A stretch of DNA of 33,584 nucleotides from Melioribacter sp. (GTDB lineage Bacteria; Bacteroidota; Ignavibacteria; Ignavibacteriales; Melioribacteraceae). The stretch spans positions 1 to 33,584 of the forward strand of contig JAGXSM010000213.1 in the NCBI GenBank assembly GCA_018333725.1, read 5' to 3'. A program made the translations under genes and the position numbers. Below, one piece after another: positions 1 to 754 of this stretch. The notes beneath the pieces were generated by a model. The model had not been told where the DNA came from. It was given only the letters and a program-made list of their open reading frames with translations, and did no database searches. Within the stretch, counting starts at the first letter, position 1. Each line of letters starts with the position of its first letter.

Positions 1-196
1 TGCAAACGTCATGCTGTTCATACTTCGTATAGTTTGAGATTACCGAAGCGTGATGAATAAAATTTATTTTTTGCAAACGTCATGCTGTTCATACTTCGTA
101 TAGTTTGAGATTACCGAAGCGTGATGAATAAAATTTATTTTTTGCAAACGTCATGCTGAGCGTCCCGAGCAAGGCGAGGGATAGCCGAAGCATGAC
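1..196. repeat. 71-bp tandem repeat (units starting at 1, 72 and 143), the third unit diverging into a palindromic element
   Basis: tgcaaacgtcatgctg... recurs at 1, 72 and 143 with exact 71-bp spacing. Units 1 and 2 look identical. Unit 3 continues as gtcatgctgagcgtcccgagcaaggcgagggatagccgaagcatgac with arms gtcatgct (150-157) / agcatgac (189-196). Confidence 0.95.
107..196. repeat. Left copy of 90-bp direct repeat flanking the GIY-YIG gene
   Basis: gagattaccgaagcgtgatgaataaaatttattttttgcaaacgtcatgctgagcgtcccgagcaaggcgagggatagccgaagcatgac. Differs from 665-754 at 3 positions by eye. Confidence 0.95.
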
Positions 197-235
197 TGGA
201 AAGGTAAACAGAACCAGATTAAGTGATGATTACCC

Positions 236-281
236 GTCAGACTTCGACTCACACGACTTTCGTCGTGTGGCTCAGTCTGAC
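236..281. repeat. Imperfect 46-nt inverted repeat / hairpin
   Basis: gtcagacttcgactcacacgac-ttt-cgtcgtgtggctcagtctgac: outer gtcagact/agtctgac and inner cacacgac/gtcgtgtg arms. Confidence 0.85.
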
Positions 282-341
282 TTAGATATGCTGAATTAGA
301 CATTCATAGTTTTTATCAATCTGTTTTAAGAAGATTGAGAT

Positions 342-656
342 ATGAGAAAGCAAATGTATGTTTATATTTTAAGATGTTCCGATGGTACTTATTATACTGG
401 AGTTACAAATAATATTGAGCGACGTCTTCAAGAGCATAAATCTGAAAGACATAATAGTTATGTATCAGCAAGATTACCTTTTGAACTTTTTTATTACGAA
501 GAATTTAATAGCCCGTTAATTGCTATTGAAAGAGAAAAACAGATCAAGGGTTGGAGCCGGGCTAAAAAGGAAGCATTAAAATATCGGGATTTTGATAAAC
601 TTAAAATCCTATCAAAAAACAGAAAAGCAAAGCAACATCATATTGTCTATCCTTAG
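342..656 (+). CDS. GIY-YIG nuclease family protein (single domain, COG2827/YhbQ-like)
   Basis: MYVYILRCSDGTYYTGVTNNIERRLQEHK: YVYIL...YTGVT GIY-YIG core plus EREKQIKGWSRAKKEALK motif. Confidence 0.92.
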   Translation: MRKQMYVYILRCSDGTYYTGVTNNIERRLQEHKSERHNSYVSARLPFELFYYEEFNSPLIAIEREKQIKGWSRAKKEALKYRDFDKLKILSKNRKAKQHHIVYP

Positions 657-664
657 TAAAGGGC

Positions 665-754
665 GAGATTGCCGAAGCGTGATGAATAAAGTTTATTTTT
701 TGCAAACGTCATGCTGAGCGTCCCGAGCAAGGCGAGGGATAGCCGAAGCGTGAC
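665..754. repeat. Right copy of 90-bp direct repeat flanking the GIY-YIG gene
   Basis: gagattgccgaagcgtgatgaataaagtttattttttgcaaacgtcatgctgagcgtcccgagcaaggcgagggatagccgaagcgtgac. Confidence 0.95.

Follow-up and report, generated by a model that had tools for sequence, protein, structure and literature searches.

A single-domain GIY-YIG nuclease gene between palindromic repeats in Melioribacter, a candidate for a class of minimal homing-like cassettes at tRNA genes and intergenic palindromes

The window, meaning the whole 33,584-nucleotide stretch analysed here, is the entire contig C213 (JAGXSM010000213.1) of a 2.86-Mb draft genome of Melioribacter sp. (G000; GCA_018333725.1). Close to its start lies a gene for a GIY-YIG protein of 104 aa (342-656), bracketed by two 90-bp direct repeats (107-196 and 665-754) that each contain a palindrome. 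This is the layout that the original prediction had read from the letters, and its by-eye count of mismatches is exact: the repeats differ at 3/90 positions (113, 133 and 192, each A/G). The pair belongs to a longer array, whose identical 71-bp units reach the contig start. In order, the features are:

5-75, plus strand: first 71-bp tandem unit, at the contig start, with a degenerate copy of the putative target palindrome (GTCATGCTG...CCGAAGCGTGAT) and an AT-rich spacer; identical to 76-146; repeat family D1
76-146, plus strand: second 71-bp tandem unit, identical to the first
150-196, plus strand: palindrome A, left copy, GTCATGCTGAGC then GTCCCGAGCAAGGCGAGGGAT then AGCCGAAGCATGAC, read as putative target-motif halves round a central hairpin; orthologous copies in G002 and G003
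236-281, minus strand: palindrome B, GTCAGACTTCGACT then CACACGACTTTCGTCGTGTG then GCTCAGTCTGAC, with CTGAGC/CGAAG halves (minus strand) round a hairpin with an 8-bp stem; 60 bp separate it from the gene downstream; conserved in G002 and similar in locus L144
342-656, plus strand: single-domain GIY-YIG nuclease, 104 aa, placed by the tree in the R1 clade (UPF0213/COG2827-like); PF01541, E 3.9e-19
661-683, plus strand: half palindrome GGGCGAGATTGCCGAAGCGTGAT, immediately 3' of the stop codon, opening the downstream repeat
684-707, plus strand: AT-rich spacer gaataaagtttattttttgcaaac, shared with the tandem units and resembling the 3' end of the gene upstream in G002 and G003
708-754, plus strand: palindrome A, right copy, 1 mismatch against the left copy

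The palindromes of the window start with CGTCAT and end with ATGAC or GTGAC. Palindrome A folds as a DNA hairpin in both copies, at -10 kcal/mol (z -3.2) on the left and -8 kcal/mol (z -1.5) on the right, and palindrome B, directly upstream of the nuclease gene, is the stronger of the two (-13.9 kcal/mol, z -4.9). We read both as a putative target motif (CTGAGC..GTCGAAG) that may have been opened by a hairpin, TCCCGAGCAAGGCGAGGGA in A and CACACGACTTTCGTCGTGTG in B; the intact form of this putative target palindrome would be CTGAGCGGAGTCGAAG. As had been predicted, no transposase accompanies the gene, and no integrase either, among the ten downstream ORFs scanned, the upstream side being the contig end. 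A phage or prophage origin was considered, and the annotated window neighbours include no phage genes.

The window protein scores 69.2 bits against PF01541 (curated cut-off 22.6). Residues Y8, Y18, G20, R28 and E65 are invariant across its clade, so that the catalytic Tyr, Arg and Glu are kept. Its nearest solved structures by sequence, PDB 1ZG2 and 1YWL, are single-domain GIY-YIG proteins of UPF0213/COG2827 and share its one-domain size, but these entries are hypothetical proteins whose descriptions carry no repeat association. Compared with its orthologue in G002, the gene has a dN/dS of 0.25, indicating purifying selection. Its synonymous divergence from that orthologue (dS 0.31) is lower than that of the neighbouring gene (dS 0.72), which would fit a later exchange of the nuclease, although a single pair of short genes is no proof.

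The array lies just upstream of a proline dehydrogenase gene (771-1703), and the orthologous site differs among four congeners. The site in G001 is a short intergenic region with neither palindrome nor nuclease, the empty site for which the original prediction had looked to relatives. In G003 it holds two tandem palindromes and no nuclease, in G002 the order is palindrome A, palindrome B, nuclease, palindrome A, and the window is an expanded version of the G002 arrangement. In other words, at one and the same site close relatives have the unit, lack it or have it in reduced form. Among 57 related genomes, matches to the palindrome pattern were found twice in G000, at the orthologous site of G002 and G003, and once at an unrelated position in G005; the occurrence of the palindrome at this locus is not due to chance. 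A strict reading of it as a genome-wide REP was rejected, as the palindrome is confined to this locus.

The window gene is one of ten GIY-YIG matches in G000, of which one is probably UvrC (570-aa frame). Most of the others stand at contig ends, the mark of repeats that break assembly. They include a tandem array at tRNA-Met, a gene beside tRNA-Ser, copies flanked by pieces of tRNA-Asp, tRNA-Ala and tRNA-Cys, and, on contig C76, a gene flanked by GTCATNCCCGC palindromes. The same surroundings recur in a sample of 80 regions with 82 GIY-YIG clusters from the 57 related genomes, for which shifted positions in the same contigs served as controls. A tRNA gene lies within 200 bp of 37/82 clusters, compared with 14/1262 control positions (p 9e-38); all of these clusters (37/37) are on the same strand as the tRNA, and part of the tRNA is usually duplicated on the far side. 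Flanking direct repeats, mostly palindromic, accompany 25/41 scorable clusters away from tRNA genes as against 20/1362 controls (p 1e-30), and they also flank relatives of the window protein in named genomes from many phyla (24/74 versus 19/1909 controls). The number of GIY-YIG matches per genome ranges from 1 to 20. Arrays in complete genomes include five 315-bp units at tRNA-Asp (G047) and five 450-bp units at tRNA-Leu, and each array unit of 315-450 bp has a single GIY-YIG gene. One tandem array of G000, made of GIY-YIG gene, tRNA-Met piece and terminator, is split over two contigs (L005 on C99 and L008 on C123), and the D-loop CAATTG of its tRNA-Met pieces is replaced by TCCGCCGAAGGCGGA. 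At L046 and L010 the GIY-YIG frame enters the tRNA copy, so that the tRNA tail and its hairpin supply the C-terminus (GGRPD...) and the stop codon.

An insertion can also be read at the tRNA-Ala locus of G000. Its order is a phosphatase gene, an intact tRNA-Ala, a decayed GIY-YIG gene with an in-frame stop, a tRNA-Ala tail and an HTH gene. The same flanking genes in G003 enclose only tRNA-Ala, and G001 likewise has tRNA-Ala without the nuclease, making both sites empty. On alignment the blocks overlap by about 66 bp of the tRNA, the duplicated part, and about 249 bp are unique to the insert. This comparison shows an insertion with target duplication, and with the window locus it makes two sites that are polymorphic for presence and absence among relatives. 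The nuclease stands alone in both: it is the single ORF between the repeats of the window, and the tRNA-Ala insert encodes GIY-YIG and nothing else, with no integrase. Tyrosine-integrase elements of tRNA genes are in this respect unlike the tRNA-Ala insert and the 315-450-bp array units, which encode GIY-YIG only.

A tree of 157 GIY-YIG domains, a single-domain tree and as such poorly resolved, relates the nucleases to their surroundings. In the T clade, 35 of 44 rows are tRNA-linked, and in the subclade of the window 43 of 55 rows carry the CTGAGC..GTCGAAG motif; none of 500 shuffles clustered the tRNA and motif labels as tightly on the tree. Within the T clade the tRNA isotype changes 13 times, against a shuffled mean of 26.2. 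Within 600 bp of the nuclease the density of this motif, CTGAGC..AGTCGAAG, is about 60 times that found elsewhere. Of 148 genomes of the phylum, 35 have the motif, 34 have an R1 nuclease and 19 have both (p 2.4e-6, a statistic that ignores phylogeny); motif copies flank the R1 gene in G153, G110 and G076, and the motif is dispersed in genomes other than that of the window. Motif-rich genomes that lack an R1 nuclease also exist (G058, with 162 copies, G123, G080 and G034), and 38/157 tree rows are loci without a repeat by these tests. Taken with the REPs described below, comparison shows that nuclease clades track target type, be it tRNA isotype, CTGAGC motif or CGTC-type REPs. Repeats scattered without a link to GIY-YIG genes, and orthologues without repeats, would have spoken against the original prediction; instead, the repeats of relatives far exceed controls, and particular palindrome families go with two of the nuclease clades. 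Its suggestion of a candidate mobile or REP-like unit is partly supported: the unit behaves like a mobile one, to judge by the series of empty, reduced and filled sites and the excess of flanking repeats over controls, but the window palindrome is not spread over the genome as a REP would be.

These patterns bear on two readings in which the nuclease does not drive its own movement. The first holds that tRNA genes and palindromes are hot spots of recombination or integration and that the nuclease is small cargo, duplicated by host recombination, by slippage or by an integrase acting in trans. The 3' ends of tRNA genes are classic integrase targets, tandem repeats grow by slippage, and the role of the nuclease is here inferred from sequence, all of which would suit such a passenger; we nevertheless regard this reading as quite improbable, given that nuclease clades track target type and tRNA isotype, that the pattern is missing at control positions of the same contigs, that the tRNA-Ala insert holds the nuclease gene alone, and that co-orientation with the tRNA is complete. 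That co-orientation, and the purifying selection on the window gene, could also be expected if nuclease and target copies were not a mobile element but a module by which the host regulates genes or maintains its tRNA loci. Presence and absence between congeners, the pseudogenised tRNA-Ala copy with its in-frame stop, and the variable copy number of arrays and of matches per genome make such domestication very improbable.

The duplicated tRNA pieces differ from the tRNA beside the cassette, which is intact. An unrelated hairpin, often TCCCGA..TCGGGA, takes the place of one arm in these copies or opens it. Of 30 tRNA copies, 24 contain a perfect inverted repeat that is foreign to the tRNA (at least 6 bp, loop at most 12), as against 11.5% of shuffles; a looser null with loops to 60, in which 31% of shuffles reach 6 bp, was too permissive and was replaced. 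The position of the hairpin depends on the isotype: the T-arm in Asp, the anticodon arm in Pro, Lys, Gly and Val, and the D-loop in Arg. Among pairs of copies of the same isotype, the hairpin lies in the same arm in 22/26 (p 4e-4). The tRNA-Asp tail at G047, for example, bears its hairpin with TCCCGACTAGTCGGGA. On this comparison, most copied tRNA pieces have one arm with a foreign hairpin, and which arm it is mostly stays constant for a given tRNA. The idea that all palindromes of the window clade likewise hold a central hairpin failed, as most R1 motifs are uninterrupted (spacing 4-5).

Hairpin-bearing pieces are also found in arrays. In the complete genome G048, locus L124 (C1:2522800-2534000) has six tandem 73-bp 5' halves of tRNA-Met, each with a TCCCGA..TCGGGA hairpin in place of the anticodon arm, followed by an intact tRNA-Met and then a GIY-YIG gene. 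In the same genome, tandem hairpin-bearing tRNA-Ser pieces stand beside tRNA-Ser(cga) at L254 (C1:2479500-2485500, positions 2640-2990) with no GIY-YIG gene left, a relic array. The tRNA-Met heads and the nuclease-free tRNA-Ser array parallel the nuclease-free 71-bp units of the window and the two palindromes of G003. As a separate observation, TCCCGA..TCGGGA mini-hairpins are dispersed in G000, G003, G034, G047, G048 and other genomes, at 5-53 per genome versus 0-3 for the reversed pattern, and may form a mobile hairpin family of their own.

REPs have been sorted into a GTAG superfamily, which is linked to RAYTs, and a CGTC superfamily without a dedicated transposase (Di Nocera et al. 2013, PMC3733652). 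CGTC-tagged REPs include Neisseria dRS3 and Rickettsia RPE-4/6; no transposase gene was associated with them in that work, which does not mention GIY-YIG (PMC3733652). In the loci fetched here, CGTC REPs (strict pattern) occur near GIY-YIG genes of the R2 clade and of no other, and repeats of the GTCATTCCCGC..GCGGGAATCC type flank R2 genes in Ignavibacteria, Neisseria, Azospirillum, Aeromonas, Photobacterium and Rhizobium. CGTC REPs are 6- to 11-fold denser near the R2 gene, which holds for R2 and not for the window clade. CGTC REP (62) and R2 nuclease (89) occur together in 47 of 197 genomes of the class (p 3.9e-9, ignoring phylogeny), whereas 15 of the 62 genomes with CGTC REPs have no R2 match. 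The REPs are dispersed in genomes other than that of the window, and several REP-poor genomes (G000, G013, G018, G246 and G284) have them beside the R2 gene. Matches to an R2 protein in plasmid records come mainly from taxa that PMC3733652 names for CGTC REPs (Sinorhizobium, Azospirillum lipoferum, Novosphingobium aromaticivorans, Sphingobium and Neisseria), plus other Rhizobiaceae; in these records the density of CGTC REPs rises 11-fold in the roughly 700 bp around the R2 gene, with REPs there in 6/16 loci and without regard to phylogeny. The window palindrome resembles CGTC REPs in its initial CGTCAT but not in its core, and its nuclease is of the R1 clade.

The tight link between an R2 subclade and REPs reported to lack a dedicated transposase (PMC3733652) speaks for a RAYT-like reading, in which the GIY-YIG enzyme acts on extruded or single-stranded hairpins, the palindromes (REPs) are the moving units and the hairpins of tRNA copies are insertion products. 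The dispersed TCCCGA..TCGGGA hairpins and the hairpin-bearing arrays without a nuclease (the G003 site and L254) point the same way. The layout is indeed similar to that of GTAG REPs and their HUH tyrosine transposases (PMC3733652, PMC3116915), in that a single enzyme gene is flanked by palindromes which in some genomes occur elsewhere too. However, GIY-YIG takes the place of HUH, no HUH tyrosine transposase is found among the ten downstream ORFs, the linked repeats are CTGAGC..GTCGAAG palindromes or CGTC REPs rather than GTAG, and nearly half of the clusters in this order adjoin tRNA genes. RAYTs do not typically duplicate long target pieces (tRNA halves) or form tandem arrays of entire cassettes, the hairpins replace tRNA arms instead of adding a tetranucleotide-tagged unit, and the window palindrome is not dispersed. 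We therefore consider the RAYT-like reading unlikely. By analogy, the cassettes would work in the manner of free-standing homing endonucleases or of REPs paired with an enzyme, yet they lack the defining marks of RAYTs. The RAYT- or homing-like layout with GIY-YIG chemistry that the original prediction proposed was thus close, apart from the genome-wide REP that the palindrome is not and the tRNA-linked relatives that a pure REP/RAYT picture does not predict.

We propose instead, as the probable though by no means certain reading, that the window locus belongs to a large class of minimal, homing-like cassettes, which would enter specific repeated targets and multiply there in tandem. Each cassette would consist of a single GIY-YIG gene, about 300 bp long, with copies of its putative target sequence on either side. 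Comparison of loci shows cassettes at specific sites (tRNA genes or intergenic palindromes), with the target copied on both sides, empty sites, tandem arrays and a match between clade and target. Hypothetically, the nuclease would cut its own target, which would be the CTGAGC..GTCGAAG palindrome in the window clade, a tRNA arm in the T clade and CGTC REPs in an R2 subclade. Homologous recombination at the break could then copy the cassette into empty targets and expand the array in tandem, as in phage SegB. Replacement by a hairpin at the cut site would render the extra target copies uncuttable, and we propose that this is why hairpin-bearing copies accumulate. Both the nuclease-driven movement and the protection by hairpins are what we infer from these patterns. 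Such protection cannot be general, because most R1 loci have the motif without a central hairpin, and the intact tRNA beside the cassette should likewise be a target, which counts against the homing model. A host recombinase that acts in trans may also be responsible.

SegB is a free-standing phage GIY-YIG endonuclease that cuts within tRNA genes at RAWTSGAAC and, through recombination, causes a tRNA-nuclease segment to amplify in tandem (PMC13096335). In our reading, RAWTSGAAC fits the tRNA T-loop, where several of the hairpins described here lie (GGTTC^GAATCC). Since SegB is the nearest tested system and its motif fits the hairpin-interrupted T-loop, we prefer the homing-like cassette. SegB and the free-standing GIY-YIG homing endonucleases of T-even phages share with the cassettes a gene beside tRNA genes and tandem tRNA-nuclease segments; SegB further has a T-loop-like cut motif within tRNA genes and a nuclease gene whose 3' end shares microhomology with the tRNA (PMC13096335). 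Unlike SegB, the cassettes reside in bacterial chromosomes, encode one domain of about 70-100 aa, have targets duplicated on both sides and hairpin-exchanged target copies, and include a sister clade tied to palindromic repeats. The tandem arrays and target duplication resemble a SegB-type homing endonuclease at least as much as a RAYT.

The repeat- and tRNA-bracketed relatives of the window gene suggest that minimal mobile elements of this class are widespread, and they offer a candidate partner to a REP family for which no enzyme had been reported. A bolder reading, towards which we lean not quite halfway, is that small GIY-YIG nucleases are the missing partners of CGTC/GTCAT repeats in many phyla, with a sister lineage of isotype-specific tRNA-gene parasites that leave the tRNA of the host intact and disarm their surplus target copies by swapping an arm for an unrelated hairpin. 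If true, the tRNA branch would represent chromosomal parasites of a new and very small kind, responsible for tandem arrays and for breaks in assemblies. UPF0213/COG2827 is a large uncharacterised nuclease family, and the hairpin-exchanged copies amount to predicted cut sites for many nucleases at once, which makes its specificity directly testable. In a search of the open literature, with subscription journals outside its scope, no paper joined GIY-YIG with REPs, UPF0213 or Ignavibacteria, and none printed the motif. Because CGTC REPs are reported to lack a dedicated transposase, their link to GIY-YIG provides a concrete, testable candidate.

One R2 gene lies between sufB and sufC in Azospirillum lipoferum AZO_p3 (L273), and another lies inside a DISARM defence gene cluster on a Planktothrix plasmid (L283). 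Near some genes of the R2 clade (L087, L193, L198, L200 and L203) there is another palindrome family, GTCATTGCGAGG..CGAAGCAATC, with a weaker enrichment (ratio 2.3).
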